Assembly (NCBI RefSeq): GCF_000718165.1
Contig: NZ_JOEY01000022.1
Coordinates: forward strand, 62,001-126,000
Length of the DNA: 64,000 bases
From: Streptomyces fulvoviolaceus
GTDB lineage: Bacteria; Actinomycetota; Actinomycetes; Streptomycetales; Streptomycetaceae
Reading direction: 5' to 3'
The position numbers were made by a program, and so were the translations under genes. Shown here piece by piece: positions 12,547 to 53,176 of this stretch (within the stretch, counting starts at the first letter, position 1; each line of letters starts with the position of its first letter). The notes beneath the pieces were generated by a model, which saw only the letters and a list, made by a program, of their open reading frames with translations, was not told the origin of the DNA and searched no databases.

Positions 12547-12560
12547 TGACAACGTTTTCT
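12547..12560. promoter_or_regulatory. Putative LacI-family operator (TGACAACGTTTTCT)
   Basis: Imperfect copy of the palindrome GACAACGTTGTC (10 of 12 core positions) in the divergent promoter between the ABC operon and the beta-mannosidase/lacI operon. Perfect or near-perfect copies precede both GH92 genes in this window (34936, 53120, 53165). Central-CG palindromes are typical of LacI/GalR proteins, and a lacI-type gene is in the divergent operon. Confidence 0.6.
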
Positions 12561-12571
12561 TAACCGGTAAA
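12560..12571. promoter_or_regulatory. Second palindromic element (TTAACCGGTAAA)
   Basis: Eleven to twelve bases with an ACCGGT centre and five of six symmetrical positions, directly abutting the GACAACGTT-type element. It resembles the perfect TTACCGGTAA at 48536 in front of the xylan-type ABC operon. May be a second LacI-family operator or part of the same bipartite site. Confidence 0.4.
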
Positions 12572-12638
12572 GTCCCTATCCCGCCAACGATGCTCAAACG
12601 TTCCCCAGTGCTGAACTCGATCGGTTTAGGGAGTGCGC

Positions 12639-15008
12639 ATGCTTCAGGACACACCACTTGCCGGGGGATGGATCCTGCGGCATGAGGGGGCTGAACTCCC
12701 GGCCGTCGTACCGGGATGCGTGCACACCGACCTGCTGGCGGCCGGGGCCGTCCCGGATCCCTTTCTCGGCCGGAACGAGACCGAGGTCGCCTGGGTGGGG
12801 CGGCGGGACTGGACCTACGAGACCGAACTGCAGGCCACCAACGGACACGAGCAGACCGACCTCGTCTTCGACGGTCTGGACACCGCGGCCGAAATCCTTC
12901 TCGACGGCCAACTCCTCGGCCGGACAAGGAACATGCACCGCTCGTACCGCTTCGACGTGACCGGCATGGCGGGCCGGCTGTCCGTGCGGTTCGCGTCCGC
13001 CTACGCCGAAGCCGAGGCCGTGCGCGGGAAACTGGGCGAGCGACCCGCCGCCTACACCGAGCCGTACCAGTACATCCGCAAGATGGCCTGCTCCTTCGGC
13101 TGGGACTGGGGGCCGACCCTGGTGACCGCCGGGATCTGGCGGCCGGTGCGGCTGGAGCAGTGGTCCACGGCCCGGATCGCCCGGGTCCGACCGCTGGTGA
13201 CCGTCGAAGACGGGCTGGGGCGCGTCGAGTTGGCCGTCGAGGTCGAGCGGAGCAGGGTCGAGGCACCGCTCGCCGTCGAGGCGACGGTGGGCGGCGTGCG
13301 GGCCCGTGCGGAGCTCGACGGGACGGCGGGGATCGTACGGCTGGAGGTGCCGGACGTGCGGCTGTGGTGGCCGCGCGGGTACGGCGAACAGCCGCTGTAC
13401 GACGTCGAGTTGACGCTGCTGCACGAGGATCGCGCGCTGGACGTGTGGCGGCGGCGGATCGGCTTCCGGACCGTCGAGCTGGACCGCCGGTCCGATGAGC
13501 ACGGCACCGGGTTCGCCTTCGTCGTCAACGGCGAGCGGCTCTTCGCGCGGGGCGTGAACTGGATCCCGGACGACCCGTTCCCGTCGCGCATCAGCCGGGA
13601 CCGGTACCGGGAGCGGCTGCGCCAGGCCGCCGACGCCGGCGTGGACCTCGTACGTGTCTGGGGCGGCGGGATCTATGAGAGCGAGGACTTCTACGACGCC
13701 TGCGACGAGTTCGGGCTGCTGGTCTGGCAGGACTTCCCGTTCGCGTGCGCGGCCTACCCTGAGGAGCAGCCGCTGCGGGGCGAGGTGGAGGCGGAGGCCC
13801 GCGAGAACGTCGTACGGCTGATGCCGCATCCGTCCCTGGTGCTGTGGAACGGGAACAACGAGAACCTGTGGGGGTTCCGGGACTGGGGATGGGAACCGCG
13901 GCTCGCCGGGGAGTCCTGGGGCGAGGGGTACTACCTCGGCGTACTGCCGCGTGTGGTGGCCGAGTTGGACCCTACGCGGCCGTACACGGCGGGCAGTCCG
14001 TGGTCGGGGTCGTGGGACCGGCATCCGAACGATCCGGCGCACGGGACGCACCACTCGTGGGAGGTGTGGAACCGGGAGGACTACGCGGAGTACCGCGCCG
14101 ACGTGCCTCGTTTCGTCGCCGAGTTCGGGTGGCAGGCACCGCCCGCGTACGCCACCCTGCGGCGCGCGCTGCCGGGTGAGGAGCTCGCATCCGACTCCCC
14201 CGGCATGCTGCACCATCAGAAGGCCGACGACGGCAACGGCAAGCTGGAGCGCGGGCTCGCGCGTCATTTCGCCCTGCCGGAGGGGGACTTCGACCGCTGG
14301 CACTACCTCATGCAGGTCAACCAGGCGCGGGCCGTGGCCGCCGGGATCGAGCACTGGCGGTCGCACTGGCCGGTGTGCGCGGGAACGGTCGTATGGCAGC
14401 TCAACGACTGCTGGCCGGTGACTTCTTGGGCGGCGATCGACGGGGACGGGCGGGAGAAGCCGCTCTACCACGAGCTGCGGCGGCTGTACGCGGACCGGCT
14501 GCTCACGTTCCAAGTGCGGGAGCAGGGGCTGGTGTTGGCCGCCGTCAACCAGGCCCCGGGGGCGTGGACGGGCCCTGTGCGGTTGCGTCGGATGTCCGTC
14601 GAGGGGGGCATGATCACCGAGACCTCACTCGATCTCAGGGCCGAGGCGCGGTCGGTGGCCGATCTCGGTGTCCCGCATGAGCTGGAGCCGGTCGGCGCCA
14701 AGGAGTTCCTGGTCGCGGACGCGGACGGGCTGCGGGCCGTGCGCTTTCCGGCGCCGGATCGTGAAGTGCCGTATCTGCGGCCGGAGTTCGACGTCACGCT
14801 CGTGCCGGGCGGGATCACGGTGACGGCCCGGACCCTCGTACGGGATCTGCTGCTGCAGGCCGACCGGCTGGACCCGGACGCGCGGGCGGACACCGGGCTC
14901 GTCACGCTGCTGCCCGGTGAGCAGGTGACCATCGGCATACGGGGCTGGGAGACTCCTGACGCCGAGGCCGCCCGAGCGGCCCTGTACTGCCTGGAGGCCG
15001 GCCGATGA
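12639..15008 (+). CDS. Beta-mannosidase, glycoside hydrolase family 2
   Basis: 789-residue retaining exo-beta-mannosidase; releases terminal beta-1,4-linked mannose from manno-oligosaccharides or from the Man-GlcNAc core of N-glycans. The N-terminal sugar-binding jelly roll (about 1-165, with VPGCVHTDLLAAG and FGWDWGPTLVTAGIWRPV typical of mannosidases rather than galactosidases), an Ig-like domain, then the TIM barrel with acid/base Glu408 (LWNGNNEN) and nucleophile Glu495 (FVAEFGWQA). No signal peptide: cytoplasmic, so it acts on imported oligosaccharides. The ATG at 12639 is preceded by AGGGAG at 6 bases; a GTG at 12633 is too close. Stop overlaps the lacI start (ATGA). Confidence 0.92.
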   Translation: MLQDTPLAGGWILRHEGAELPAVVPGCVHTDLLAAGAVPDPFLGRNETEVAWVGRRDWTYETELQATNGHEQTDLVFDGLDTAAEILLDGQLLGRTRNMHRSYRFDVTGMAGRLSVRFASAYAEAEAVRGKLGERPAAYTEPYQYIRKMACSFGWDWGPTLVTAGIWRPVRLEQWSTARIARVRPLVTVEDGLGRVELAVEVERSRVEAPLAVEATVGGVRARAELDGTAGIVRLEVPDVRLWWPRGYGEQPLYDVELTLLHEDRALDVWRRRIGFRTVELDRRSDEHGTGFAFVVNGERLFARGVNWIPDDPFPSRISRDRYRERLRQAADAGVDLVRVWGGGIYESEDFYDACDEFGLLVWQDFPFACAAYPEEQPLRGEVEAEARENVVRLMPHPSLVLWNGNNENLWGFRDWGWEPRLAGESWGEGYYLGVLPRVVAELDPTRPYTAGSPWSGSWDRHPNDPAHGTHHSWEVWNREDYAEYRADVPRFVAEFGWQAPPAYATLRRALPGEELASDSPGMLHHQKADDGNGKLERGLARHFALPEGDFDRWHYLMQVNQARAVAAGIEHWRSHWPVCAGTVVWQLNDCWPVTSWAAIDGDGREKPLYHELRRLYADRLLTFQVREQGLVLAAVNQAPGAWTGPVRLRRMSVEGGMITETSLDLRAEARSVADLGVPHELEPVGAKEFLVADADGLRAVRFPAPDREVPYLRPEFDVTLVPGGITVTARTLVRDLLLQADRLDPDARADTGLVTLLPGEQVTIGIRGWETPDAEAARAALYCLEAGR

Positions 15009-16033
15009 CCACCTCCCGCGTCACCATCAAGGACGTCGCCGCGCGTGCCGGTGTGTCCAAGGGTGCCGTGTCCCTCGCGTTCAACCACAAGCCGGGGCTG
15101 TCGGAGGCGACCCGGGAGCGGATCTTCCAGGCCGCGCAGGAGCTCGGCTGGGCGCCGAGCCTGACCGCCCGGACGCTGGCCGGCTCTCGGGTGGACGTGG
15201 TGGGCCTCGCGATCTGCCGGCCCGCCCGGCTGCTCGGGCTCGAACCCTTCTACATGGAGTTCATCTCCGGCGTGGAGAGCGTCCTGACCGAGCACTCCTG
15301 CTCGCTGCTGCTGAGGCTCGTACGGAGTGTGGAGGAGGAGGTCGGGATACAGGAGTCGTGGTGGCGGGGCCGGCAGATCGGCGGATCGATCCTCGTCGAC
15401 TTCCGCCCGGACGACCCGCGGGTGGCGGCCGCCGAACGGCTCGGGATGCCCGTGGTCGCCGTAGGACATCCGACCCTGACCGGCGGCCTCACGTCCGTGT
15501 GGACGGACGATGCCACCGCCGTGACGGAGGCCGTGCGGTATCTGGCCGCGCTCGGGCACCGGCGGGTCGCCCGGGTCGGCGGGGCGGCGGCCCTCGGGCA
15601 CACCGCGATGCGTACAGCCGCCTTCGACGAGGCGGCGCGGACGTTGGAACTGGCCGGAGCCCGGCAGCTCACCACCGACTACTCGGGCGAGGCGGGGGCG
15701 CGGGCCACCCGGTCGCTGCTCAGCGCTGCGGCGGCGGACCGGCCTACGGCGATCGTGTACGACAACGACATCATGGCGGTGGCCGGGCTGTCCGTGGCCG
15801 CGGAGATGGGGTTGTCGGTGCCGGGGGATGTGTCTCTGCTGGCGTGGGACGACTCTCAGCTGTGTCGGCTGACGCATCCGACGTTGTCCGCGATGAGTCA
15901 TGACGTGCATGGATTTGGTGTGGAGGCGGCTCGGACGCTGTTCGGGGTGCTCTCGGGAGAGGGGCCGGGGTCGCATCCGGTGCCTACTCCGGTGCTGACG
16001 CCTCGGGGGTCCACGGCGCCGCCGTCTCGGTAA
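15005..16033 (+). CDS. LacI-family transcriptional repressor
   Basis: 342-residue sugar-responsive repressor. The helix-turn-helix is at residues 6-26 (VTIKDVAARAGVSKGAVSLA), a hinge helix follows with SLTARTLAGSR, then a periplasmic-binding-protein-like effector domain (DVVGLAICRPARL to WDDSQLCRLTHPTLSAM). Translationally coupled to the beta-mannosidase gene, so it most likely senses a product of mannoside breakdown and represses this operon and the divergent importer. I propose that it binds GACAACGTTGTC, which also occurs before both GH92 genes. Effector unknown. Confidence 0.9.
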   Translation: MTTSRVTIKDVAARAGVSKGAVSLAFNHKPGLSEATRERIFQAAQELGWAPSLTARTLAGSRVDVVGLAICRPARLLGLEPFYMEFISGVESVLTEHSCSLLLRLVRSVEEEVGIQESWWRGRQIGGSILVDFRPDDPRVAAAERLGMPVVAVGHPTLTGGLTSVWTDDATAVTEAVRYLAALGHRRVARVGGAAALGHTAMRTAAFDEAARTLELAGARQLTTDYSGEAGARATRSLLSAAAADRPTAIVYDNDIMAVAGLSVAAEMGLSVPGDVSLLAWDDSQLCRLTHPTLSAMSHDVHGFGVEAARTLFGVLSGEGPGSHPVPTPVLTPRGSTAPPSR

Positions 16034-28369: not shown

Positions 28370-28522
28370 GTGAACCATCTCCTTCGCCGCCTGACCGGCG
28401 GGGATGCCGCGCTTGGGATAGGGCGCGGAGGGTTGTGCTGAATGCACAGATTTACAAGATGAACATGCACGCGGCCGATGCCCTTTGGCAACGGCTGCGT
28501 TCGCCATGCTTCCGTCCGGCGC

Positions 28523-28554
28523 CCGCCCCACAGCGGGGTCTGAAGGTGGGGCGG
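28523..28554 (-). terminator. Intra-operon stem-loop between xylF and xylG
   Basis: CCGCCCCAC ... GTGGGGCGG, 9-bp perfect arms, 14-base loop, in the 224-base gap between xylF stop (28594) and xylG start (28369). Likely a partial terminator or mRNA-stabilising structure that gives more binding protein than membrane components, as is common in sugar ABC operons. Nothing else is evident in this gap. Confidence 0.6.
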
Positions 28555-28593
28555 ACACCGGACAGGTCTACTGCCGCAAGGAGCGGCGGCTGC

Positions 28594-29783: not shown

Positions 29784-29812
29784 AACGAGATGGCAACGGC
29801 GTCCTGCGTTCT

Positions 29813-31189: not shown

Positions 31190-32143
31190 TTACTTCAACG
31201 CACCCGCCGTGAGACCCGCCTGAACCTGCCTCTGGAAAATGAAGTAAACGATCAACACCGGAAGCATCGCGATCATCATGCCGGCCATCAGCGCGCCCCA
31301 GTCGTTCTCGTAGCCCTGCTGCAGGGCGATCATCGCGAGGCCCTGGGTGAGCACGTACTTGTCCTCGTTCTGGTTGAGCACCATGGGCAGCAGGTACTGG
31401 TTCCACTGTCCCAGGAAGTTGAAGATCCCGATACTGATCAGGCCCGGCTTGGCCATCGGCAGCATCACCTGGAAGAACGTTCGCGTGTGCGACGCCCCGT
31501 CGATCAGCGCGGCCTCCGCGATCGAGGTGGGCAGCGTGCGGAAGAAGGCCGTCATGAAGAAGACCGTGAACGGCAGCGAATACGCGATGTAGACGAGGAT
31601 CAGGCCCTGGTACGTCGCGAGGAGCGAGCTGCCCGGGAAGTCCCGCAGCACGAAGAACAGCGGGATGACCAGCATGAACACCGGGAAGGACATGCCGGCC
31701 ACGAACAGGTAGTAGATGAAGCGGTTGCCGGGGAAGGTGAAGCGGGCCAGGACGTACGCGGCCATGGAGCCGAGCACCATCGTGCCGATCACCGAACCGC
31801 CCACCACGATCGCGGTGTTGACGAAGTACCGGCCCATGTTCGCCTGGTTCCAGGCGTTGGCCCAGTTCTCGAAGTGGAACGTGGTCGGCAGGCCCCACGG
31901 GTCGGACAGGATGCCGTTGCTGGTCTTGAAGGAGCTCCACAGCACCCACAGCAGCGGAACGCCGACCATCAGCGCCCACACGACGAGCATGCCGTGCGAG
32001 AAGACGTGCAGGATGCCGCCCTCGGAGCTGCGGCCGTCGGTCGGGCCGAGCTTCTTCGTGATGCCGCCGGGACGGGGTTCGTCGGTCTTGCTCACCGCGT
32101 CCGTGATCGCGTTCGTGTCCGTCGTCATGTCGCCCGTCGTCAT
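31190..32143 (-). CDS. ngcG: N-acetylglucosamine/chito-oligosaccharide ABC permease NgcG
   Basis: 317-residue CUT1 permease with six predicted helices and a hydrophilic 40-residue N-terminus. The EAA loop is IAEAALIDGASHTRTFFQVM (about 215-234). ATG at 32143 is preferred: GCGGGG lies 4 bases upstream; a GTG at 32155 is only two bases from the previous stop. Last gene of ngcEFG. In S. coelicolor the orthologous transporter takes up chitin oligosaccharides (established). It has no cognate ATPase gene here; MsiK is the known partner class. Confidence 0.9.
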   Translation of the reverse strand: MTTGDMTTDTNAITDAVSKTDEPRPGGITKKLGPTDGRSSEGGILHVFSHGMLVVWALMVGVPLLWVLWSSFKTSNGILSDPWGLPTTFHFENWANAWNQANMGRYFVNTAIVVGGSVIGTMVLGSMAAYVLARFTFPGNRFIYYLFVAGMSFPVFMLVIPLFFVLRDFPGSSLLATYQGLILVYIAYSLPFTVFFMTAFFRTLPTSIAEAALIDGASHTRTFFQVMLPMAKPGLISIGIFNFLGQWNQYLLPMVLNQNEDKYVLTQGLAMIALQQGYENDWGALMAGMMIAMLPVLIVYFIFQRQVQAGLTAGALK

Positions 32144-32157
32144 GTCGCCCCGCACCC

Positions 32158-33081
32158 CTAGAACTCGATCCGCTCACGCCGCGCGAAGCGCATCGTGAGC
32201 ACTGCGAACGTCATGGTGACGATGAGCATCGCGACGCCCATCGCGGACGCGTAGCCGAACTGGCTGTCGCGGAAGGCCGTCAGGTACAGGCGCAGCGGCA
32301 TGACGTCCGTGGCGCCGTCGGGGCCGCCCATGTTGACCGACATGATCTGCACCAGGGCGAAGCCGTCCAGGGCGATGATGCCCATGTACACCCAGCCGGT
32401 CTGCACGGTGTCCCACAGCAGCGGGAGGGTGATCCGGAAGAAGGTGTGGAAGCGCCCCGCGCCGTCGAGCAGCGCCGCCTCGTAGATGTCCCGTGGGATG
32501 GAGGCCATCGCCGCTGAGAACAGCACTACGTAGAAACCGACGTGCGACCAGATCATCACCGCCATGATGCACAGCAGGGCGATGCTCTTCTCGCCCAGCC
32601 AGGCGTTCTGCCAGCTGTCCAACCCCACCGCACCCAGCAGGGAGTTGAGCATGCCGTCGTCGGGGTCCGGGTTGTAGATGTTGAACCAGATGACGGCGAC
32701 GATGGTGATGGAGATGACCTGCGGGAAGAAGAACACGAAGCGGTAGAACTTCGAGCCGGCGACGCCGGTGATCACTTCGTTCTTACGGCGTTTTCCGCCG
32801 ACGTTGAGCATGAAGGCGAAGAACAGGCCGAGCCCCAGCGTGATGATCGGGACGAAGATCAGCATGTAGACGTTGTGGCGCAGCGCGTTCCAGAAGTCCT
32901 CGTTGTTCCACAGCTTTTCGAAGTTCTCGAGTCCGACGAACTTCGCCGTGCCGACCAGCCCCGACCAGTCGGTCAGCGAGATCTGGAACGCCTGGACGAA
33001 CGGCGAGATCACGAAGATCGCGTAGACCAGCACGGGTAGGGCCAGGAAGCCCACGATGAATCGGTATTTGCCGTGTTGCAT
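32158..33081 (-). CDS. ngcF: N-acetylglucosamine/chito-oligosaccharide ABC permease NgcF
   Basis: 307-residue CUT1 permease. Six predicted helices (first at about 8-30), EAA loop YEAALLDGAGRFHTFFRITL at about 205-224. ATG at 33081. It follows ngcE by 45 bases and precedes ngcG by 14, so the three form one transcript. Confidence 0.9.
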   Translation of the reverse strand: MQHGKYRFIVGFLALPVLVYAIFVISPFVQAFQISLTDWSGLVGTAKFVGLENFEKLWNNEDFWNALRHNVYMLIFVPIITLGLGLFFAFMLNVGGKRRKNEVITGVAGSKFYRFVFFFPQVISITIVAVIWFNIYNPDPDDGMLNSLLGAVGLDSWQNAWLGEKSIALLCIMAVMIWSHVGFYVVLFSAAMASIPRDIYEAALLDGAGRFHTFFRITLPLLWDTVQTGWVYMGIIALDGFALVQIMSVNMGGPDGATDVMPLRLYLTAFRDSQFGYASAMGVAMLIVTMTFAVLTMRFARRERIEF

Positions 33082-33126: not shown

Positions 33127-34578
33127 CTACTTTTCGCGCTTGAACTTCTCGACCGAGTCGTCCTTGGCCACGGCGTCGGCGTATGCCTGGGTCTTCTTGA
33201 TCCAGTCGGCCGCCTTCAGGTCACCCGTGAGCAGCTGCCCGGTGAGACCGCCGATCTTCTCGTCGGTGAGCGCGGGGTACCACTCCTGGAGCTGGAGGCT
33301 GATGATGTTGTCGCCGGCCGCCTTGAAGGCCGCGCTCGCCGAGGTCAGACCCGGCGAGAGAGTCATGCCCTCGGTCGCGTCGAGCACACAGGTCAGCGAC
33401 TTCACGAGCTTGGCGAAGTTCTGCGCGTGCTTCTTGGAGAGCATGATGCGCAGCAACTCCATGCCGCCGACCGGGTTCTTGCCCTTGGCGGCGACGATGT
33501 ACGGCTCGCTGGGCTCGGCGCGCAGGGTGCCGTTGGGCATCTTGTCGCCGGTGCCGTCGAAGAGCGCGCCGACGGACATCGCGAAGTCCTTGGGCGTGGT
33601 CGGGGCTGCCTCGTTCTCCACCCAGGAGCCGTTCGGGATGAAGACGGCCTTGCCCTTGGTCCAGGCGGTCTGCGACTGGATGTGGGTCAGGCCCTGGCTG
33701 CCCTCCAGGAAGTACTTCTTGGCGGCCAGCTCCTCGTAGAACTCGACGACCTCCTTCACCGCGTCGTTGGAGGTCCAGGCCTTGGGCTCCAGGTTGTCGA
33801 TCGCGATCCAGCCGTCCATGCCGCCGATCTTGGCGATCTCGGCGAACAGGTTGAAGTGGACGTAGTACGGGTACTTTCCGGCGTACGTCCAGGGCGCGAT
33901 GCCCTTCTTCTTGATCTCACCGGACAGCGTGACCATGTCCTGCAGGGTCTTCGGGTACTCCCAGCCGTTGTCGTCGAGGACCTTCTGCGAGTACCAGGTG
34001 CCGTAGATCGTGAAGGCGTAGTAGAGCACGTCGAAGACGTCTCCGTGCTTGCCCTTCTCGATGGTGCTCGGGTGGATGACGTCCGAGATCTTCTTGCTCG
34101 CGTCGTCCATGGAGGGCGCGTCGAGCAGCGCCTGGAGGTCCTGGAGCTGCCCTTGCGTGGACAGCTTGTTCATGTCGAGGTGGTCGGCGCCGGAGTTGTC
34201 GATGACGTCCGGCGGGTTGCCCCCCGCGAAGCGCGGGGTGAGCTTGGGGCCGACCTGCTGGGTGCCGGTGTGCTTGACCGTGGCGGCGTACTTCGTCTTG
34301 TAGTCGGCCTCCGCGTCCTTGGCGTACTGGTCGCCGAGGCCGCCCTTGAAGATGAACGCGTCGAGGGCGAGGCCCTTCTTGACGCCGAGGGGGTTCGCGG
34401 CCGACTTCGCCCCTTCGGGGGCCTTGGTCTCCTTCTCGTCGCCGCCACCGCCGGTGGCACACGCGGACAGGAAGCTCATCGTGGGTACGGAGATCAGACC
34501 GAGTGCGGCCGACCGCTTGATCAATTCGCGGCGGCCGACACCTGCGGCGCCGTTGTTCTCGGCGGAAGTGGATCCCAT
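33127..34578 (-). CDS. ngcE: N-acetylglucosamine/chito-oligosaccharide-binding lipoprotein NgcE
   Basis: 483-residue solute-binding lipoprotein. The N-terminus has twin arginines (GVGRRELIKRSAALG) followed by lipobox MSFLSAC, so export may use the Tat route. The mature SBP_bac_1 domain includes NPLGVKKGLALDAFIFKGGL, TGTQQVGPKLTPRFAGGNPP-type ligand region and WTKGKAVFIPNGSWVENE. ATG at 34578 is taken as start; a TTG 6 bases upstream is less likely. A near-consensus DasR site (34730-34745) lies about 150 bases upstream, fitting GlcNAc-responsive control. Confidence 0.92.
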   Translation of the reverse strand: MGSTSAENNGAAGVGRRELIKRSAALGLISVPTMSFLSACATGGGGDEKETKAPEGAKSAANPLGVKKGLALDAFIFKGGLGDQYAKDAEADYKTKYAATVKHTGTQQVGPKLTPRFAGGNPPDVIDNSGADHLDMNKLSTQGQLQDLQALLDAPSMDDASKKISDVIHPSTIEKGKHGDVFDVLYYAFTIYGTWYSQKVLDDNGWEYPKTLQDMVTLSGEIKKKGIAPWTYAGKYPYYVHFNLFAEIAKIGGMDGWIAIDNLEPKAWTSNDAVKEVVEFYEELAAKKYFLEGSQGLTHIQSQTAWTKGKAVFIPNGSWVENEAAPTTPKDFAMSVGALFDGTGDKMPNGTLRAEPSEPYIVAAKGKNPVGGMELLRIMLSKKHAQNFAKLVKSLTCVLDATEGMTLSPGLTSASAAFKAAGDNIISLQLQEWYPALTDEKIGGLTGQLLTGDLKAADWIKKTQAYADAVAKDDSVEKFKREK

Positions 34579-34729: not shown

Positions 34730-34745
34730 ACAGGTATAGTCCACT
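34730..34745. promoter_or_regulatory. Putative DasR-responsive element (dre) of ngcEFG
   Basis: ACAGGTATAGTCCACT agrees with the DasR consensus ACTGGTCTAGACCACT at 13 of 16 positions. It lies in the 397-base divergent spacer between ngcE and the GH92 gene. DasR is the GntR-type regulator of GlcNAc and chitin genes in Streptomyces and is released by GlcN-6-P (established). The remainder of the spacer holds no gene; it includes a TTGGCCAA palindrome near 34790 and TTGACA at about 34885. Confidence 0.6.
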
Positions 34746-34935: not shown

Positions 34936-34947
34936 GACAACGTTGTC
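34936..34947. promoter_or_regulatory. Perfect palindromic operator GACAACGTTGTC (GH92-1)
   Basis: Perfect 12-bp palindrome 29 bases upstream of the chosen GH92 start, downstream of a TTGACA -35-like hexamer. It is identical to the site at 53165 upstream of the second GH92 gene. Placement between promoter and start codon fits repression by a LacI-family protein. Confidence 0.68.
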
Positions 34948-34975: not shown

Positions 34976-37900
34976 ATGCGGTGGTACAGAACTCGACTCA
35001 GACGGCGGGGTACGGCGGTCGTGATCACGACCGCCTTTGTCATGACGGTGGGCTCGCAGGGGGCGGCGGTCGCGCTACCGGAGGCGGCCGCCGCGGCCGA
35101 CCGGTCCTTCGCCTCCTCCTTCGAGGCGGGTGACCCTACCCCCGACTGGCTCAACACCGTCGACACCGCGCCGGACGGCTCCCCGCGGGCCTCGGGCGTC
35201 GACGGCGGCTACAGCACCGGCATCCCCGGCAACGTCACCGACCACGTCACGGACGTGCGGGCGAGCGGCGAGAACACCGGCGGCGGCGAGGTGAAGGAGA
35301 ACCTCGTCGACGGCGAGCCCGGCACCAAGTGGCTGACCTTCGAGCCCATCGGCTGGGCCGAGTTCGACCTCGACAAGCCGGTCAAGGTCGTCACCTACGC
35401 CCTCACCTCGGCCAACGACTTCGCCGAACGCGACCCGAAGGACTGGACGCTCCAGGGCTCGACGGACGGCAAGGACTGGAAGACCCTCGACACGCGCTCC
35501 GGGGAGTCCTTCGCCGAACGGTTCCAGACAAAGTCGTACGACCTCACCGATCCGGCCGAATACCAGCACTTCCGCCTCGACATCACGGCGAACAACGGCG
35601 CCCCCGGCATCCTCCAGCTCGCCGACGTCCAGTTCTCCACGGGCGGCGGCAACGGCCCCGTCCCGCAGGACATGCTCTCCCTGGTCGACCGCGGCCCGAG
35701 CGGCTCGCCCACCGCGAAGGCGGGCGCGGGCTTCACCGGCAAACGGGCGCTGCGGTACGCCGGCCGGCACACGGCGGACGGGCGGGCGTACTCGTACAAC
35801 AAGGTCTTCGACGTGAACCTGCGGGTTCGCCCGGACACGCGGCTGTCGTACCGGATCTACCCGTCGATGGCGGACGGCGACCGGGACTACGACGCTACGA
35901 ACGTGGCGGTGGACCTGGCCTTCACCGACGGCACGTATCTGAGCGAGCTCAACGCGACGGACCAGCACGGGTTCGGACTCAGTCCTCAGGGGCAGGGCGC
36001 CGCCAAGGTGCTCTACGTCAACCAGTGGAACAACGTGGCCTCGGGGATCGGGTCGGTCGCGGCCGGGAAGACCGTCGACCGGATCCTGGTCGCGTACGAC
36101 TCCCCCAAGGGCCCGGCCAAGTTCCGCGGCTGGCTGGACGACCTGGCGATCGAGCCCGTCCGGCCCGAGCGGCCCAAGGCCCATCTGTCCGACTACGCGC
36201 TCACCACCCGCGGCACCAACTCCAGCGGCGGCTTCTCGCGCGGCAACAACTTCCCGGCCACGGCGGTCCCGCACGGCTTCAACTTCTGGACCCCGGTGAC
36301 GAACGCGTCCTCGCTGAGCTGGCTGTACGACTACGCCCGCGCCAACAACGACGACAACCTGCCGACGATCCAGGCGTTCAGCGCGAGCCATGAGCCGAGC
36401 CCCTGGATGGGCGACCGGCAGACCTTCCAGGTGATGCCGTCCGCCGCCTCCGGCACCCCGGAGACGGGCCGTGAGGCACGGGAGCTGGCCTTCCGGCACG
36501 AGAACGAGACCGCGCGGCCGTACTACTACGGGGTGGAGTTCGAGAACGGGCTGAAGGCGGAGATGGCCCCGACCGACCACGCGGCGGCGCTCCGCTTCAC
36601 CTACCCCGGCGACGACACGAGCGTCCTCTTCGACAACGTGACGGACCAGGCCGGGCTGACGCTCGACAAGGACGCGGGTGTCGTCACCGGGTACTCGGAC
36701 GTGAAGTCGGGGCTGTCGACGGGGGCCACCCGGCTCTTCGTGTACGGCGTGTTCGACAAGCCGGTGACCGACGGGGACTCCGGCGGGGTCAAGGGCTATC
36801 TGCGCTTCGACGCCGGTGACGACCGGACGGTCACGCTACGGCTGGCGACCTCGCTCATCAGCCTCGACCAGGCCAAGGACAACCTGCGCCAGGAGATCCC
36901 GGACGGCACCTCCTTCGAGAAGGTCACGTCACGTGCCCAGCGGCAGTGGGACCGGATCCTCGGCAAGGTCGAGGTCGAGGGCGCGACACCGGACCAGCTG
37001 ACCACGCTGTACTCCAGCCTCTACCGGCTGTACCTGTACCCCAACTCCGGCTTCGAGAAGGTCGGTTCGAAGTACCAGTACGCCTCCCCGTTCTCGCCGA
37101 TGCCCGGGCCCGACACCCCGACGCACACCGGCGCGAAGATCGTGGACGGCAAGGTGTACGTCAACAACGGCTTCTGGGACACCTATCGGACGACCTGGCC
37201 GGCGTACTCACTCCTGACGCCCACTCAGGCGGGCGAGATGGTCGACGGGTTCGTCCAGCAGTACAAGGACGGCGGCTGGACCTCACGCTGGTCCTCCCCC
37301 GGGTACGCGGACCTGATGACCGGCACCTCCTCGGACGTCGCCTTCGCGGACGCGTACGTCAAGGGTGTCGACTTCGACGCCAAGCCGGCGTACGAGGCGG
37401 CCCTGAAGAACGCCACCGTCGTGCCGCCCTCCTCGGGCGTGGGCCGCAAGGGGATGGCGACCTCGCCCTTCCTCGGCTACACGAGCACCGACACGCACGA
37501 GGGCCTGTCGTGGGCGCTGGAGGGCTGTCTCAACGACTACGGCATCGCGCGGATGGGCCAGGCGCTGTACCGGAAGACGGGCGAGAAGCGGTACGCGGAG
37601 GAGTCGGAGTACTTCCTCAACCGGGCCCGGGACTACGTGAACCTGTTCGACACGAAGGCCGGCTTCTTCCAAGGCCGCGATGTCGACGGGGACTGGCGCG
37701 TCGAGTCCTCCGCCTACGACCCGCGCGTATGGGGCTACGACTACACCGAGACCAACGGCTGGGGCTACGCCTTCACCGCCCCGCAGGACAGCCGGGGCCT
37801 CGCCAACCTCTACGGCGGCCGCAGCGGGCTCGCCGAGAAGCTCGACGAGTACTTCGCCACCCCCGAGACGGCCTCGCCGGACTTCGTCGGTTCCTACGGC

Positions 37901-38785
37901 GGGGTCATCCACGAGATGACGGAGGCGCGGGACGTCCGGATGGGCATGTACGGCCACTCCAACCAGGTCGCCCACCACGTCAACTACATGTACGACGCGG
38001 CCGGTCAGCCGTGGAAGACACAGCGGAACGTCCGTGAGGTGCTGTCGCGGCTGTACACCGGCAGCGAGATCGGCCAGGGGTACCACGGTGACGAGGACAA
38101 CGGCGAGCAGTCGGCCTGGTACCTGTTCTCCGCGCTGGGCTTCTACCCGCTGGTGATGGGAAGCGGCGAATACGCCGTCGGATCACCGTTGTTCACGAAG
38201 GCCACGGTCCATCTGGAGAACGGCCGGGACCTGGTGGTCAGGGCGCCGAGGAACAGCGCGCGGAACGTGTACGTGCAGGGGCTGCGGGTCAACGGGCGTA
38301 CGTGGACGTCGACTTCGCTCCCCCACTCGTTACTCGCGAAGGGTGGGACGCTGGACTTCGACATGGGGTCGCGGCCGTCGTCGTGGGGCACGGGCAAGGA
38401 CGCGGCTCCCGTCTCCATCACCCAGGACGACAAGGTGCCGACGCCTCGGGCGGACGTGCTGAAGGGCGAGGGGGCCCTGTTCGACAACACGTCGGTGACG
38501 GACGCGACGGTGACGTCGGTGGACCTTCCGGTGACCGGGCCGGTCAAGGGGCTCCAGTACACGGTGACTTCATCCTCGGACCACACGAAGGCACCGACCG
38601 GCTGGACCCTCCAGGGTTCGGACGACGGGACCGAGTGGAAGACGCTCGACCAGCGATCGGGCGAGTCCTTCGCGTGGGACAGCCAGACACGGGCGTTCAC
38701 GGTGGGGTCTCCGGGTACGTACGGGAAGTACCGCCTGGTCCTCGACGGCGAGTCCGTCGTGTCGGAAGTCGAACTGCTCGCCTGA
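34976..38785 (+). CDS. Secreted GH92 alpha-mannosidase with two F5/8-type C domains
   Basis: 1269-residue exo-alpha-mannosidase, Ca-dependent, releasing mannose from mannans or high-mannose N-glycans. Signal peptide about 1-43. First discoidin/F5-8C carbohydrate-binding module about 80-225 (KWLTFEPIGWAEFDL, DWTLQGSTDGKDWKTLDTRS). GH92 N-domain and catalytic helical barrel about 390-1150: acid Glu925 in YTETNGWGY and the Asp pair in HGDEDNGEQSAWY (Asp1039/Asp1041). A second F5-8C-like module ends the protein (GWTLQGSDDGTEWKTLDQRS, repeating the first). ATG at 34976 has GGGAGGG 9 bases upstream; an in-frame ATG at 34931 lies inside the operator region. GH67 follows 20 bases later. Confidence 0.9.
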   Translation: MRWYRTRLRRRGTAVVITTAFVMTVGSQGAAVALPEAAAAADRSFASSFEAGDPTPDWLNTVDTAPDGSPRASGVDGGYSTGIPGNVTDHVTDVRASGENTGGGEVKENLVDGEPGTKWLTFEPIGWAEFDLDKPVKVVTYALTSANDFAERDPKDWTLQGSTDGKDWKTLDTRSGESFAERFQTKSYDLTDPAEYQHFRLDITANNGAPGILQLADVQFSTGGGNGPVPQDMLSLVDRGPSGSPTAKAGAGFTGKRALRYAGRHTADGRAYSYNKVFDVNLRVRPDTRLSYRIYPSMADGDRDYDATNVAVDLAFTDGTYLSELNATDQHGFGLSPQGQGAAKVLYVNQWNNVASGIGSVAAGKTVDRILVAYDSPKGPAKFRGWLDDLAIEPVRPERPKAHLSDYALTTRGTNSSGGFSRGNNFPATAVPHGFNFWTPVTNASSLSWLYDYARANNDDNLPTIQAFSASHEPSPWMGDRQTFQVMPSAASGTPETGREARELAFRHENETARPYYYGVEFENGLKAEMAPTDHAAALRFTYPGDDTSVLFDNVTDQAGLTLDKDAGVVTGYSDVKSGLSTGATRLFVYGVFDKPVTDGDSGGVKGYLRFDAGDDRTVTLRLATSLISLDQAKDNLRQEIPDGTSFEKVTSRAQRQWDRILGKVEVEGATPDQLTTLYSSLYRLYLYPNSGFEKVGSKYQYASPFSPMPGPDTPTHTGAKIVDGKVYVNNGFWDTYRTTWPAYSLLTPTQAGEMVDGFVQQYKDGGWTSRWSSPGYADLMTGTSSDVAFADAYVKGVDFDAKPAYEAALKNATVVPPSSGVGRKGMATSPFLGYTSTDTHEGLSWALEGCLNDYGIARMGQALYRKTGEKRYAEESEYFLNRARDYVNLFDTKAGFFQGRDVDGDWRVESSAYDPRVWGYDYTETNGWGYAFTAPQDSRGLANLYGGRSGLAEKLDEYFATPETASPDFVGSYGGVIHEMTEARDVRMGMYGHSNQVAHHVNYMYDAAGQPWKTQRNVREVLSRLYTGSEIGQGYHGDEDNGEQSAWYLFSALGFYPLVMGSGEYAVGSPLFTKATVHLENGRDLVVRAPRNSARNVYVQGLRVNGRTWTSTSLPHSLLAKGGTLDFDMGSRPSSWGTGKDAAPVSITQDDKVPTPRADVLKGEGALFDNTSVTDATVTSVDLPVTGPVKGLQYTVTSSSDHTKAPTGWTLQGSDDGTEWKTLDQRSGESFAWDSQTRAFTVGSPGTYGKYRLVLDGESVVSEVELLA

Positions 38786-46592: not shown

Positions 46593-46629
46593 GGATACTC
46601 CTTTGTTCCGTAAGTGAATTGACGGACTG

Positions 46630-47499: not shown

Positions 47500-48488
47500 C
47501 ACAGGCTGGTCCCCACTGTGCGACGCGAGAGCGTGTTGGCGGACGTGATGAGGACCAGGCCGATGATCGACTCGAACAGCCCGATGGCGGCGGCGTAGCT
47601 GAAGCTGCTGGACTCCACACCGGCCCGGTAGACGTACGTCGAGATCACGTCGGCGGTCGGATACGTCAGCGGGTTGTACAGCAGCAGGACCTTCTCGAAG
47701 CCGACCGCCATGAACGTGCCGATGTTGAGGATCAACAGCGTGATCATGGTGGGGCGGATGCCGGGCAGGGTGACGTGCCAGATCTGCTGCCAGCGGTTGG
47801 CACCGTCGATGCGTGCGGCCTCGTACAGGTCCTCGTCGATCGTGGTGAACGCGGCGAGGTAGAGGATCGTGCCCCAGCCGGCGGTCTGCCAGATCTCCGA
47901 GCCGACGTAGAGCGTGCGGAACCACTCGGGTTCCTGGATGAAGCGGATCGGGTCGTGGCCGAACCAGCCGAGGACATGGTTGACCGGGCCGTCGCTGGCC
48001 AGCATCTGCATCGTGATCCCCGCGACGATCACCATCGACAGGAAGTGCGGAAGGTACGACACCGACTGGACGAACCGTTTCAGCGAGTGTCTGCGCACCT
48101 CGTTCAGCAACAGCGCCAGCACGATCGGGATCGGGAAGCAGAAGACGAGCGTGAGCCCGCCGAGCCACAGGGTGTTGCGGAACACCTGCCAGAAGGTGGG
48201 ATCGCTGAGGAACATGCGCACATAGCGCAGGCCCACCCAGTCCTCACCGAACATCGAGCCGCCCGGTTCGAAGCGCCGGAAGGCGATCACGTTGCCGATC
48301 ATCGGCAGATAGCGGAAGAGCAGGAAGAACAGCAGCGGCAGGAGCGCCAGCGAGTACAGCTGCCAGTCGCGGCGCAGGGCCCGGCGCCAGGTGGGGCGCT
48401 TGGCGGGACGTGCGGGGCGGTCTCCCGTCTTGGGCGGCGGTGGCTCCTGGGTGCCGGGCGGCGGAGCCGATGTGGTGGGGGTGCTCAT
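47496..48488 (-). CDS. LplB-type carbohydrate ABC permease
   Basis: 330-residue CUT1 permease. Pro-rich cytosolic N-terminus (1-35), then six helices starting at LYSLALLPLLFFLLFRYLPM. EAA loop YEAARIDGANRWQQIWHVTL at about 228-247. First gene of the six-gene operon 48488-40752 (permease, permease, binding protein, GH39, YesL, GH42). Its promoter region carries CGAAACTTTCG and TTACCGGTAA and is divergent from the CE7 esterase gene. Confidence 0.89.
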   Translation of the reverse strand: MSTPTTSAPPPGTQEPPPPKTGDRPARPAKRPTWRRALRRDWQLYSLALLPLLFFLLFRYLPMIGNVIAFRRFEPGGSMFGEDWVGLRYVRMFLSDPTFWQVFRNTLWLGGLTLVFCFPIPIVLALLLNEVRRHSLKRFVQSVSYLPHFLSMVIVAGITMQMLASDGPVNHVLGWFGHDPIRFIQEPEWFRTLYVGSEIWQTAGWGTILYLAAFTTIDEDLYEAARIDGANRWQQIWHVTLPGIRPTMITLLILNIGTFMAVGFEKVLLLYNPLTYPTADVISTYVYRAGVESSSFSYAAAIGLFESIIGLVLITSANTLSRRTVGTSLW

Positions 48489-48519
48489 GCTCGGGCCTCC
48501 CGGGCGGGGCGCGCGGAAC

Positions 48520-48530
48520 CGAAACTTTCG
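48520..48530. promoter_or_regulatory. Xylan-type operator CGAAACTTTCG
   Basis: Eleven-base palindrome around a central C, 32 bases upstream of the first permease start. The GAAACTTTC core is the conserved element described upstream of Streptomyces xylanase genes and bound by a LacI-type repressor of the BxlR kind (family knowledge). It supports xylan-responsive control of this operon and possibly of the divergent esterase. Confidence 0.6.
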
Positions 48531-48535
48531 AGCTC

Positions 48536-48545
48536 TTACCGGTAA
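48536..48545. promoter_or_regulatory. Perfect palindrome TTACCGGTAA
   Basis: Ten-base palindrome 5 bases beyond the CGAAACTTTCG box in the 227-base divergent spacer. Similar to TTAACCGGTAAA at 12560 and TTACCGATAA at 16162. Central-CG symmetry suggests a LacI/GalR-type site. The rest of the spacer holds promoters for the two divergent transcripts and no gene. Confidence 0.5.
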
Positions 48546-48715
48546 CTTCGCGGCAACTTAGAGGCACCCAGAAAGCGCTGTCAATGGGTCACGCAGGAGA
48601 TTCCCGGGACGAACGTGAGGCATTGGAACCGGCGTGGGCGGGGTAGAACAGGGAAACCAAATCCCGGTCCCCTCCGCAAGTTTCACTACTTTGACCGACT
48701 CATGCGAGGTGCCCT

Positions 48716-49714
48716 GTGCCTGCGTTCGACCTGCCGACGAGGGAGCTGGCGGACTACCGTCCCGATGTCGAAGAACCCCCGGAATTCGACGAGTTCTGGC
48801 GTGACACTCTGAAAGAGGCCGCCCAGTGGGACCCGTTGGTCTCGGTGCGCCCCGCGGAGAGCGGGCTACGGCTGACGGAGACCTGGGACGTGACCTTCCG
48901 GGGTTTCGCCGGGGATCCGGTACGCGCCTGGTACAGCAGGCCCGCCGGAGTGCGCGAGCCACTGCCGGCGGTCGTCGAGTACGTCGGCTACGGCCGCGGT
49001 CGCGGCCTTCCCCACGAGCGGCTGACCTGGGTGAACGCCGGGTACGCGCATCTGCTGATGGACAACCGCGGCCAGGGCGACCAGTACGGCAACGGCGGCG
49101 CCACGCCCGACCCGCACGCGACGGCGCCGGGTGGCCCGGGCCCGGCGGCACGCGGCCTGCTCGACCCGCGCGACCACCACTACCGACGGCTGATCACGGA
49201 CGCGGTGCGCGCGGTGACGGCGGTGCGCGCGCTGCCCGGCGTGGACGTGTCCCGCACCACCGCCGTCGGCAACAGCCAGGGCGGCGGCCTCGCCCTGGCC
49301 GTCGCCGGGCTGGTCCCGGACCTGGCGGCGGTCCTGGTCACCGCCCCTTTCCTGTGCGGCATCCGGCGCGCACTGGACCTCACCGACGCGAGTCCCTACG
49401 GCGAGATCACCGCGTACCTGTCGGTCCACCGCGGCTCCGAGCAGGCCGCCTACCGGACCCTCTCCTACATGGAGGGCATCTCGTTCGCCCGGCGCGCGCA
49501 GGCCCCGGCCCACTTCGGGGTGGGCCTGCGCGACACCGTGTGCCCGCCGAGCGGGGCGTACGCGGCCTTCAACCGCTACGGGGAGTTGACCGGCGCGGAC
49601 CCACGCAAGGAGATCCACGCCTATCCGTACAACGGCCACGAGGGCGGCGACGCCTTGCACGTACGCCGCCAACTCGACTGGTTGGACCAGGTGTTCAGCC
49701 CTGAGCCAGCGTGA
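48716..49714 (+). CDS. Acetyl xylan esterase, CE7 family
   Basis: 332-residue alpha/beta hydrolase (AXE/cephalosporin C deacetylase) that removes O-acetyl groups from xylo-oligosaccharides. Catalytic triad Ser187 (VGNSQGGG), Asp273 (GLRDTVCPP), His308 (YNGHEGG), with spacing very close to B. subtilis CAH; N-terminal DEFWRDTLKEA segment is family-typical. No signal peptide, as usual for CE7. GTG start at 48716. Divergent from the xylan ABC operon, convergent with the second GH92 gene, their 3' ends overlapping by 20 bases. Confidence 0.92.
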   Translation: MPAFDLPTRELADYRPDVEEPPEFDEFWRDTLKEAAQWDPLVSVRPAESGLRLTETWDVTFRGFAGDPVRAWYSRPAGVREPLPAVVEYVGYGRGRGLPHERLTWVNAGYAHLLMDNRGQGDQYGNGGATPDPHATAPGGPGPAARGLLDPRDHHYRRLITDAVRAVTAVRALPGVDVSRTTAVGNSQGGGLALAVAGLVPDLAAVLVTAPFLCGIRRALDLTDASPYGEITAYLSVHRGSEQAAYRTLSYMEGISFARRAQAPAHFGVGLRDTVCPPSGAYAAFNRYGELTGADPRKEIHAYPYNGHEGGDALHVRRQLDWLDQVFSPEPA

Positions 49715-52700
49715 ACACGTGCAGGTCCGCGTCGTCGGGCAGTTTCACGCTCGCGATGCTCTTCCCTTCCGGCGCCGTGAACGGCTTCGTGGCGAAGACG
49801 TACGTGGCGACCGGGTCCCGGTCCGCACCCGCCACGTTCCGGTACGCGGCCCGGGCGACGACCTCGTTGCCGTACTGGACGGTGCCGCCGCCTCCGCCGA
49901 CGGTCCAGTCGGTGAGGGCGAGGCCGATCGTGTCCGTGCTGCCGTCGGTGTAGGTGACGGTGGCCTGGGCCTGCTGGTTGCCGTTGACCGCGCTGCCGAG
50001 GAAGGACAACTGACTGACTGGCTCGTCCAGTTGGATGGTCTGACCGTTCGCCGAGGCGTTGTCGGGGCGTCCGCTGGGCGAGTCCGGCCAGGTGAAGGCG
50101 AGACCGGCGGCCGTGCCCTGCTTCCCCGGTGCCAGCCCGGCCGCGGCCAGCGCCTGGCGGGAGTAGTTCCAGCCGCCGCCGTCGTAGTCGGCCTCGTCGT
50201 GGTCGCCGGAGTCGTCCGAGATCCCGGTGTTGTCGTACGCGGCGAGGAGGGTGCCGGGCGCGGCGACGGTCAGGGACACCGGCTGCTCGTACGAGGTGCC
50301 GTCCGAGGTGACCGTGACCTTGACGTCGTAGAAGCCCTGCTCGGTGTCCCGGGTGGAGCTCAGCGTGATCTCCTGGCTGCCGTCGACGACCGTTCCCCCG
50401 GCGGGAGTTGCTTCGACGCCGTCGGGCGCCTCGACACGGAAGCGGATCTCCGGACCCGCCCCGCCGCTCAGTGACAGGGCGCGGATGCCGACCTTCGTGC
50501 TGCCGCCCGGTGCGATCGTCGCCGTGGTCGGGCCGACACCGATCTGGTACCGCTGCTCGCCCTCACGGAAGGACGGCGGGGCGTCGGCCGTCGCACTCCC
50601 CCAGCCCTTGTCCGGGGTGCCGGAGAGCGTGTAGTCCAGGGTGCCGCCGTCCCGGACGAAGGAGGCGGGGAGCCAAGGGCGGTCGCTGGTACGGCCGTTG
50701 ACCTTCAACGAGTTGATGTACGGCGCGACCGCCGCCGCGCCCTCCGCGTGGACGGAGATGTCGTTGCCGTGGGGGCGGTCGATCTCGATCCGGGGGAACA
50801 GCGGGGAGGCGAGGGCGAGTTCGGCGCGGGAGGGCACCTGGGGGTACATGCCGAGCGCGGAGAAGACGTACCAGGAGGACATCGCGCCGAGGTCGTCGTT
50901 GCCGGGGATGCCGCCGGGCTGTGGGGACCAAAGCTCGCGCATCGCCGCCCGGACCGTCTCCTGCGTCTTGTAGGGGGCGCCCGCGTAGTCGTACAGGTAG
51001 GGCACGTTGATCGACGGCTCGTTGTCCAGCTCGGACTTCTCGCCGCCGCTGCCGGTGAAGGCCCAGCCGCCGTCGGCGTCGTGGAAGAAGGAGTCGAGGC
51101 GGGCCAGCGCCTTGTCCCGGCCACCCATCGCGGCGAACAGACCGGCGGGGTTGTGCTGGACCATCCAGGTGTACTGGGCCGCCGTACCCTCGACGAAGCC
51201 GTTGCCGGTGGCCGGGGTGAAGCCGGTGACCCAGCTGCCGTCGGCCTTGCGGTTGGCGATGTAGCCGCCTGTCGCATCGGCGGCGATGTTGAAGTTGTTC
51301 TGCCACCACTGGGAGCGGGCGGCGAACGTGTCCGCGGTGCTCTTCTCCCCTGCCTCTGCGGCCAGTTGGGAGAGTGCGAAGTCGGCGCCGGACATCTCCA
51401 GCGTCTCGGCGGCGCCGCCCCAGGCGTTGGAGACGGACGGCATGTAGTGCAGCTTCAAGTACTTGTCGAGGGAGGGGCGTTGACCGACGGACAGCACCGG
51501 CTTTCCGGCGGGTGAGAGGTCCTGTTCGGTGGGGACCGTGGCCGCCTTGGTCAGCGAGGCCAGTGCGCCGCGCAGGTCGAAGTCCGCGCCGCCGAAGGCG
51601 CGGATGCCGGCCAGGGCGATGGGTGAGGGGTCGCCGTTCATGACGTGGGTGCCGCTCGCGCCATGCAGCCAGCGGTCCCAGATGCCGCCGTTCTGCTCGG
51701 CCAGTTCGTACAGCGACTGGGCGATGTCGGAGCCGGTGCGGGGGTTCAGCAGGGTCAGCAGCTGGACCTGGTCGCGGTAGACGTCCCAGCCGGAGAAGGT
51801 GCCGTACTGGGCCCGGTGGCCGCGGGTGACGGTGTGCACCTCGTCGTCGCTTCCGCGGTATCTGCGGTCGGCGTCGCTGATGACGTTGGGGTGGAGGAGG
51901 GAGTGGTAGAGCGCGGTGTAGAAGGTGGTGCGTTCGTCGTCCGTGCCGCCGCCGACCCTGATCGCGTCCAGCTGGTCGCGCCAGGCGCGGTGGGCCGCGT
52001 CCCGCACGGAGTCGAAGGAACGCCCGGGTGGGTTCTCGGCGGCGAGGTTGGCCTCGGCGCCGGCTCTGCTGACGTACGAGATGCCGACCTTGACGCCGAC
52101 CTGTTCCGTGCCGGGCGCGAACTCGACGTATCCGCCCGCCCCCTTGCCGGCGACGGGACGACCGCCGGCCGCGAAACCCCCCGTGCCGCCACTGGACTTC
52201 AGAGATCCGGGATCGAGGCGGTCGTCCTGCCAGGTCCCAGCCTCCTTGAAGGGGCGGTCGAAGTGAGCCGTGAAGTGCAGGGTGTAGTAGGCGCGTTGGC
52301 CCTCGGGATCGAGGTAGCCGCAGAAGTTGCCGGAGGTGACGGAGCCGGAGATCGTGCGGGTCGCCGGGTCGATGTCGATCGCCGAATCGGTCGAGCCCAC
52401 CTCGGAGTTGGCGGTGCGGACCAGGAGCGAGGCGGGCTTGTCGGCCGGGAAGGTGAAGCGGGCCGAGCCCGTGCGGGCGGTGGCCGTGAGGTCGGCCGTG
52501 ACCCCGGTCGCGAGGCCCACCTTGTAGTGGCCGGGCTCCGCGGTCTCGTCGGCGTGGCTGAAGTCGGCGGCGTAGACCGCGTCCTTGGTGTCGCTCGCGG
52601 GGGACGAGGTGACCTCGCCCGCGTACGGGAAGAACGGGATGTCGCCGCTGCCGCCCCCGCAGCCCGTGCCGGACATGTGGGTGAGGCTGAAACCGCGGAT

Positions 52701-52961
52701 GCGGGTGGCGTCGTACTGGTAGCCGCCGGGGGCGGCGGTACGGGTGGCGTCACCGCGGGTGTTCTCGGGGCTGAAGGAGAACATGCCGAACGGGGCGACG
52801 GCGCCCGGGAAGACGTTGCCGCCGTTCTTGGTGCCGATGAGCGGGTCGACGTACGCGGTGGGATCGCCGACCAGGTCCGGCGGCGGTGCCGCGAGGGCGG
52901 GAGTGGCGCCGGCGAGCGCCAGAACGGCGGCCAGCAGCAGGGACGTAGGACGGAAACGCAT
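49695..52961 (-). CDS. Secreted GH92 alpha-mannosidase
   Basis: 1088-residue secreted exo-alpha-mannosidase. Signal peptide 1-25 (LLLAAVLALAGATPALAA). GH92 N-terminal beta-sandwich (about 30-310: YVDPLIGTKNGGNVFPGAVAP-type start, SHADETAEPGHYKVGL) and catalytic helical domain (about 310-770) with acid Glu591 (FVEGTAAQY) and the base-motif PGNDDLGAMSSWY (688-690). It then continues with a NEW3-like bacterial Ig domain (about 815-890) and a C-terminal jelly-roll-like domain of about 190 residues (YDNTGISDDSGDHDEADYDG). ATG at 52961 with AAGGAGG upstream. Two GACAACGTTGTC-type sites lie 160-215 bases upstream. Lacks the F5-8C modules of the first GH92. Confidence 0.9.
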   Translation of the reverse strand: MRFRPTSLLLAAVLALAGATPALAAPPPDLVGDPTAYVDPLIGTKNGGNVFPGAVAPFGMFSFSPENTRGDATRTAAPGGYQYDATRIRGFSLTHMSGTGCGGGSGDIPFFPYAGEVTSSPASDTKDAVYAADFSHADETAEPGHYKVGLATGVTADLTATARTGSARFTFPADKPASLLVRTANSEVGSTDSAIDIDPATRTISGSVTSGNFCGYLDPEGQRAYYTLHFTAHFDRPFKEAGTWQDDRLDPGSLKSSGGTGGFAAGGRPVAGKGAGGYVEFAPGTEQVGVKVGISYVSRAGAEANLAAENPPGRSFDSVRDAAHRAWRDQLDAIRVGGGTDDERTTFYTALYHSLLHPNVISDADRRYRGSDDEVHTVTRGHRAQYGTFSGWDVYRDQVQLLTLLNPRTGSDIAQSLYELAEQNGGIWDRWLHGASGTHVMNGDPSPIALAGIRAFGGADFDLRGALASLTKAATVPTEQDLSPAGKPVLSVGQRPSLDKYLKLHYMPSVSNAWGGAAETLEMSGADFALSQLAAEAGEKSTADTFAARSQWWQNNFNIAADATGGYIANRKADGSWVTGFTPATGNGFVEGTAAQYTWMVQHNPAGLFAAMGGRDKALARLDSFFHDADGGWAFTGSGGEKSELDNEPSINVPYLYDYAGAPYKTQETVRAAMRELWSPQPGGIPGNDDLGAMSSWYVFSALGMYPQVPSRAELALASPLFPRIEIDRPHGNDISVHAEGAAAVAPYINSLKVNGRTSDRPWLPASFVRDGGTLDYTLSGTPDKGWGSATADAPPSFREGEQRYQIGVGPTTATIAPGGSTKVGIRALSLSGGAGPEIRFRVEAPDGVEATPAGGTVVDGSQEITLSSTRDTEQGFYDVKVTVTSDGTSYEQPVSLTVAAPGTLLAAYDNTGISDDSGDHDEADYDGGGWNYSRQALAAAGLAPGKQGTAAGLAFTWPDSPSGRPDNASANGQTIQLDEPVSQLSFLGSAVNGNQQAQATVTYTDGSTDTIGLALTDWTVGGGGGTVQYGNEVVARAAYRNVAGADRDPVATYVFATKPFTAPEGKSIASVKLPDDADLHVFTLAQG

Positions 52962-53119: not shown

Positions 53120-53131
53120 GACATCGTTGTC
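53120..53131. promoter_or_regulatory. Operator-like GACATCGTTGTC (GH92-2, proximal)
   Basis: Eleven of twelve positions match GACAACGTTGTC. It lies 159 bases upstream of the second GH92 start and 45 bases, centre to centre, from the perfect site at 53165, so two repressor dimers could bind and loop. Confidence 0.55.
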
Positions 53132-53147
53132 CGTTGACGCGGTAGAG

Positions 53148-53163
53148 TCTTGTGTAGACCACT
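53148..53163 (-). promoter_or_regulatory. Weak DasR-like site upstream of GH92-2
   Basis: On the minus strand AGTGGTCTACACAAGA: the first nine bases equal the DasR half-site AGTGGTCTA and 12 of 16 positions match in total. It sits between the two LacI-type operators. Weaker than the ngcE site; may be chance. Confidence 0.35.
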
Positions 53164-53164
53164 C

Positions 53165-53176
53165 GACAACGTTGTC
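53165..53176. promoter_or_regulatory. Perfect palindromic operator GACAACGTTGTC (GH92-2, distal)
   Basis: Perfect 12-bp palindrome (14 bp with flanking C/G), identical to the one before the first GH92 gene. The 343-base spacer 52962-53304 contains these sites, the hairpin at 53247 and no credible gene. Confidence 0.65.

Follow-up and report, generated by a model that had tools for sequence, protein, structure and literature searches.

Judged by its conservation, the 12-base palindrome GACAACGTTGTC, found in a 64,000-nucleotide stretch of Streptomyces fulvoviolaceus DNA (contig NZ_JOEY01000022.1, positions 62,001 to 126,000; hereafter, the window), is genuine and forms a switch site strongly conserved upstream of Streptomyces genes for mannose-releasing enzymes. 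It very probably serves as the operator of LacI2, a LacI-family protein encoded outside the window and the probable repressor of its own promoter, of a divergent ROK kinase gene, and of the alpha-mannosidase genes GH92-1 and GH92-2, while the LacI protein encoded in the window (LacI1) would be a separate regulator. A preliminary description, made from the letters of the window, had placed the palindrome at three mannosidase loci under the control of LacI1; most of the regulon it proposed appears to stand, but not the regulator. The sites and the two target genes are as follows.

34936..34947, no strand assigned: perfect palindrome GACAACGTTGTC, 12 bases, 28 bp 5' of the GH92-1 ATG (34976)
53165..53176, no strand assigned: perfect palindrome, 203 bp ahead of the start of GH92-2, a minus-strand gene
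53120..53131, no strand assigned: one-mismatch copy GACATCGTTGTC, 158 bp ahead of the start of GH92-2
12548..12559, no strand assigned: GACAACGTTTTC element in the divergent importer/GH2 promoter, a tentative regulon member
34976..38785, plus strand: GH92-1 alpha-mannosidase with an F5/8-type domain
49695..52961, minus strand: GH92-2 alpha-mannosidase

The perfect copies at 34936 and 53165 and the 11/12 copy at 53120 lie where the preliminary description had placed them. The fourth copy is present as well, but starts at 12548 rather than 12547 and agrees with the consensus in 11/12 letters, 10/12 being its self-symmetry; the gap of 29 bases given between the first copy and GH92-1 is actually 28 bases to the ATG. 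The assignments to GH92 and to GH2 beta-mannosidases hold in Pfam, profile, and PDB-relative comparisons.

The window has four copies with at most one mismatch, whereas 100 first-order Markov simulations of 64 kb gave 0.12 on average and never more than 1; all four are intergenic, being upstream of GH92-1, GH92-2 (two), and the ATP-binding cassette (ABC) importer/GH2 pair. With at most two mismatches there are 8 copies, against a mean of 2.43 and a largest value of 7 in 100 shuffles. Perfect copies occur three times in the 11.6-Mb genome, upstream of GH92-1, GH92-2, and LacI2, and the reversed control not at all; summed over 61 genomes of the genus, the counts are 197 and 8, respectively. The genome-wide scan with one mismatch that had been proposed does yield an excess (51 copies vs. 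10 for the control), but, of the 50 copies with gene contexts, 36 are within called genes (the calls coming from a simple in-house caller), the other 14 lying between genes or at a gene start. Because of these 36, one-mismatch copies by themselves are mostly background, and the scan was rejected as a list of targets.

The third perfect copy, at C60:84528, lies outside the 40 kb over which the regulon was said to spread. It stands 115 bp before LacI2 and 98 bp before the divergent ROK-family gene:

C60:84655-85716, outside the window: LacI2, LacI-family gene

LacI2 has the N-terminal LacI helix-turn-helix (HTH) domain PF00356 and the C-terminal periplasmic-binding-protein-like domain PF13377, both over the cut-offs; the ROK protein has hits to several sugar-kinase models, none of which reaches its cut-off. 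LacI2 was found in 59 of the 61 genomes (threshold 1e-80), and 44 of the 50 promoters compared among these 59 carry the perfect palindrome, even in length and with a central CG (30/30 in the first set and 14/20 in the second, where G036 was counted by coordinates, with a perfect copy 255 bp upstream). The same is seen in 80/80 named LacI2 records, the best 80 of 506, which come from Streptomyces or are labelled Kitasatospora, are 89–94% identical, and overlap the 61-genome set and hence are not independent of it; the ROK gene is divergent in all 79 of them with enough sequence. Farther out, the palindrome accompanies LacI2 in four of four distant genus members. At the LacI2 locus, a secreted GH27-type alpha-galactosidase gene (L050, 5381-7366) is located just past the ROK gene, which would suit galactomannan use.

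GH92-1 orthologues occur in 46/61 genomes, and all 38 of their promoters compared (30/30 and 8/8) have the perfect palindrome, while the reversed control never comes closer than three mismatches in the first 30. LacI2 is present in every one of these 46 genomes; an orthologue of LacI1 (at least 69% identity), in only 11. For GH92-2, the 11 nearest relatives (53–100% identity) among 25 matches each keep a copy within one mismatch of the palindrome, perfect in nine; two copies 45–46 bp apart, as in the window (45 bp between those at 53120 and 53165), are retained in 7/11. Of the remaining 14 matches, three have the palindrome intact upstream and one has it intact at the aligned start; two have a copy with two mismatches, and eight have none. 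The sites, their conservation, and the regulator with which they travel are read from the sequence.

The comparison of perfect copies in relatives outside the LacI2 promoters covered 47 of those listed among the 197, excluding those of S. fulvoviolaceus itself and one copy within a GH2 gene of G017. GH92 genes follow 25 of the 47; other promoters with perfect copies belong to GH26, GH5, a GH1/ROK pair, GH43, GH127, and a ThuA-type gene. Perfect copies within GH78 genes (L254, L270; GH78-like in L286) were considered and taken as a coding coincidence. In the own genome, ten of the 14 copies between genes or at a gene start, including that of LacI2, lie outside the window; by eye, the genes facing those at C2, C17, C24 (two), C47, C57, and C76 show no mannose link. 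One copy, at C11:9152 (L059, position 3153), overlaps the called start of a ThuA/sorbosone-dehydrogenase gene, and perfect copies are nearby in the relatives L262 and L271; with one-mismatch or perfect copies at its 5' end or close to it in three genomes, this gene is a possible further member of the regulon. Another, at C40:68949 (L076, position 3450), is GACAACGATGTC, the GH92-2 variant, 22 bp ahead of a gene that encodes a sugar-ABC-like binding protein and adjoins another LacI gene.

Several observations weigh against LacI2 as the regulator acting through this site. GH92-3, encoded on C60 of the own genome, has no palindrome copy upstream and was rejected as a regulon member; it is one of the eight GH92 relatives, of the 14 more distant, that lack the palindrome. 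In relatives, 6/47 perfect copies fall within called genes, and some of the rest lie before genes unrelated to sugars. Only 2/8 LacI2-like genes of other genera have the palindrome, and the LacI2 recognition region GVGLKTVSRVVN persists where the palindrome is missing, in L372 and in the LacI2 of six genus genomes (G012, G038, G039, G042, G046, and G054). The best match in these six promoters is no better than four mismatches, and the genomes have neither a perfect copy anywhere nor GH92-1. They may represent one lineage, since five of them have the same string at the position of the best match. In other genomes (G004, G015, G031, G047, G009, and G013), the LacI2 copy is retained without GH92-1.

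The persistence of LacI2 in the six palindrome-less genomes is what would be expected if another regulator bound the palindrome and LacI2 were merely one of its targets; the genome offers 57 LacI-type HTH matches, and a site preceding a regulator gene is no proof of autoregulation. However, among the matches listed (obtained with a loose pattern that may miss some of the 57), LacI2 is the sole LacI gene of the genome preceded within 400 bases by a copy with zero or one mismatch, and it is present in all 46 genomes with GH92-1. We consider another regulator improbable.

Still less credit is due to the explanation of the preliminary description, which has LacI1 controlling all three loci through GACAACGTTGTC. 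The locus in question comprises the following features.

12639..15008, plus strand: GH2 beta-mannosidase (Pfam; the best PDB relatives are beta-mannosidases)
15005..16033, plus strand: LacI1, with a LacI HTH and a sugar-binding domain
9397..12487, minus strand: sugar ABC importer, with one gene for the binding protein (11174-12487) and two for permeases
12563..12568, no strand assigned: ACCGGT within AACCGGTAAAG, a candidate LacI1 operator or part of a -35 box

The domains of LacI1 are suitable, and it is encoded beside the one-mismatch copy at 12548, in the promoter region of its own operon. However, 28 of the 38 GH92-1 promoters come from genomes in which no LacI1 orthologue reaches 69% identity, and all 28 retain the perfect palindrome; LacI1 is thus very unlikely to be the regulator. 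LacI1 and LacI2 are identical at 102 of 347 aligned columns and differ in their recognition regions (GLKTVSRVVN in LacI2 and SKGAVSLAFN in LacI1).

Nor is the palindrome conserved in the promoter of the LacI1 operon. LacI1 orthologues, by the same identity threshold, occur in 14/61 genomes; the promoters compared were 13, i.e., the window and 12 of 20 loci, omitting L184 (importer and GH2 start uncalled) and L193–L199 (no GH2 neighbour called). The 12548 element is spelled GACAACGTTTTC in three of them (the window, L180, and L182) and GACAGCGCTTTC in six, and four promoters lack it, so that the former spelling is not retained in 10/13, while AACCGGTAAAG with ACCGGT is kept in 13/13. A second ACCGGT lies close to the GH2 start in 10/13 promoters; in the window, L180, and L182 it reads ATCGGT, and AGCGCT reads AACGTT. 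The frequency of ACCGGT in the window is about one per 2,460 bases. By these comparisons, the ACCGGT elements are the more likely operators of LacI1, although part of their conservation may be owed to the -35 box: on the importer strand, the 12548 element is seen by eye between a putative -35 (TTTACC) and a putative -10 (CAGAGT).

The 12548 element is possibly an operator of something, and its tie to LacI2 appears weak. This tie is favoured by two LacI2-like genes of other genera with a second copy altered at the same letter (GACAACGTTATC). GACATCGATGTC was considered as a variant operator; it has six copies in the own genome. Hence, of the three loci said to be linked by one palindrome, the two GH92 loci stand and the GH2-lacI locus is doubtful, because the 12548 element is poorly kept and the LacI gene outside the window has a perfect palindrome in its own promoter genus-wide. 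In two relatives, perfect palindromes occur within the GH2 coding sequence (L190, position 3215; L191, position 3319), probably as a coding coincidence. In L184 and L186 (G040 and G017), the GH2 gene beside LacI1 appears shortened or broken, and lacI is kept.

A promoter element or a chance string with no operator function can practically be dismissed: a T often precedes the palindrome, producing the -35-like string TGACA, and most one-mismatch copies fall inside genes, but all 12 letters are invariant in 38/38 GH92-1 and 30/30 LacI2 promoters despite varying flanks, the perfect copies in the genus far outnumber the control, and the pairing upstream of GH92-2 is retained.

Retaining LacI2 as the regulator, we infer that, by binding these sites, it probably keeps down transcription from its own promoter as well as that of the divergent ROK kinase gene and of the two genes for secreted alpha-mannosidases, GH92-1 and GH92-2. 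At GH92-1, where the site is predicted to lie between the promoter and the start codon, the bound repressor would block transcription; at GH92-2, the two sites 45 bp apart would leave room for two dimers. A sugar derived from mannose, i.e., mannose or mannobiose if the effectors reported for SsManR apply, would release LacI2. LacI1 would be a separate local regulator of the beta-mannosidase/importer pair, probably acting via the ACCGGT elements.

SsManR of Streptomyces sp. SirexAA-E, reportedly described by Ohashi and co-workers in 2021, is said to be a mannose- and mannobiose-responsive regulator with a 12-bp palindrome that occurs four times in the genome, twice before alpha-1,2-mannosidase genes. 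If this account holds, LacI2 is very likely the orthologue of SsManR. The few perfect palindromes seen here (three), before alpha-mannosidase genes and the regulator, match that regulon as reported. If the account holds, the core regulon is already known, and the genus-wide counts and conservation, the junction with the adjoining DasR element described below, and the separate promoter elements of LacI1 are what is added. In a literature search, the letters of the palindrome occurred in two papers, neither of them on Streptomyces by its title, and none of the papers seen describes the motif. LacI-family regulons in general, as presented in excerpts of PMC4052901, have the same features as here, i.e., an HTH with a periplasmic-binding-protein domain and an even palindrome with a central CG upstream of sugar genes; the five ManR-type groups listed there are for mannose and mannosides.

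GH92-1 is divergent from ngcE, and their shared intergenic region contains both the palindrome and a site for another regulator:

33127..34578, minus strand: ngcE, binding protein of the N-acetylglucosamine/diacetylchitobiose ABC transporter (TIGR03851 equivalog, 560 bits vs. a cut-off of 399.65)
31190..33081, minus strand: presumed permeases ngcF and ngcG, downstream of ngcE, from gene calls, with identity by synteny with SCO6005-6007
34730..34745, minus strand: DasR-responsive element, 16/16 match to the published S. coelicolor SCO6004-SCO6005 site

The gene for the chitobiose importer facing GH92-1 strengthens the theme of mannosides and high-mannose glycans proposed for the window. The DasR element is exact in 29/30 relatives and has one mismatch in the thirtieth. 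Its start-to-start distance to the palindrome ranges from 185 to 413 bp; therefore, the two are unphased. In S. coelicolor, DasR bound the region of SCO6004 (a putative alpha-1,2-mannosidase) and SCO6005 at agtggactatacctgt, as seen by chromatin immunoprecipitation with microarrays (ChIP-on-chip) and gel shift; according to the excerpts of these papers (PMC6167110, PMC4398421), it is the same divergent alpha-mannosidase/ngcE region with an identical 16-base element. The palindrome, present here, has no mention in the same excerpts, and the word LacI occurs 0 times in PMC6167110.

In the window, a Rok7B7-like ROK regulator gene (29813-31012) adjoins a sugar ABC operon with a Peripla_BP_4 binding protein (28594-29691) and ngcE (26271-34578 overall), and the gene order matches that of SCO6005-SCO6011 as far as given in the excerpts of PMC6167110. 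Between and beside the GH92 genes (38806-49714 and 53305-54498) is a dense polysaccharide-degradation region with GH67, GH42, and acetyl-xylan-esterase-type genes, an ABC binding protein, and a lytic polysaccharide monooxygenase with CBM2.

A broader reading, which we hold only tentatively and consider rather unlikely as a whole, is a conserved two-input junction at GH92-1/ngcEFG (N-acetylglucosamine via DasR and mannose via LacI2), with the beta-mannosidase operon passing from the local LacI to the LacI2 regulon in the clade of the window (3/13). If true, the junction would coordinate alpha-mannosidase with chitobiose import in the breakdown of eukaryotic glycans or of the fungal wall (mannoprotein and chitin). 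Control by LacI2 would correct the natural guess that a neighbouring LacI protein is the regulator and would assign a compact, clearly bounded regulon to a LacI regulator present in 59/61 of the genomes sampled in the genus; the possible convergence of chitin-sugar (DasR) and mannose control in one promoter region provides a testable case.

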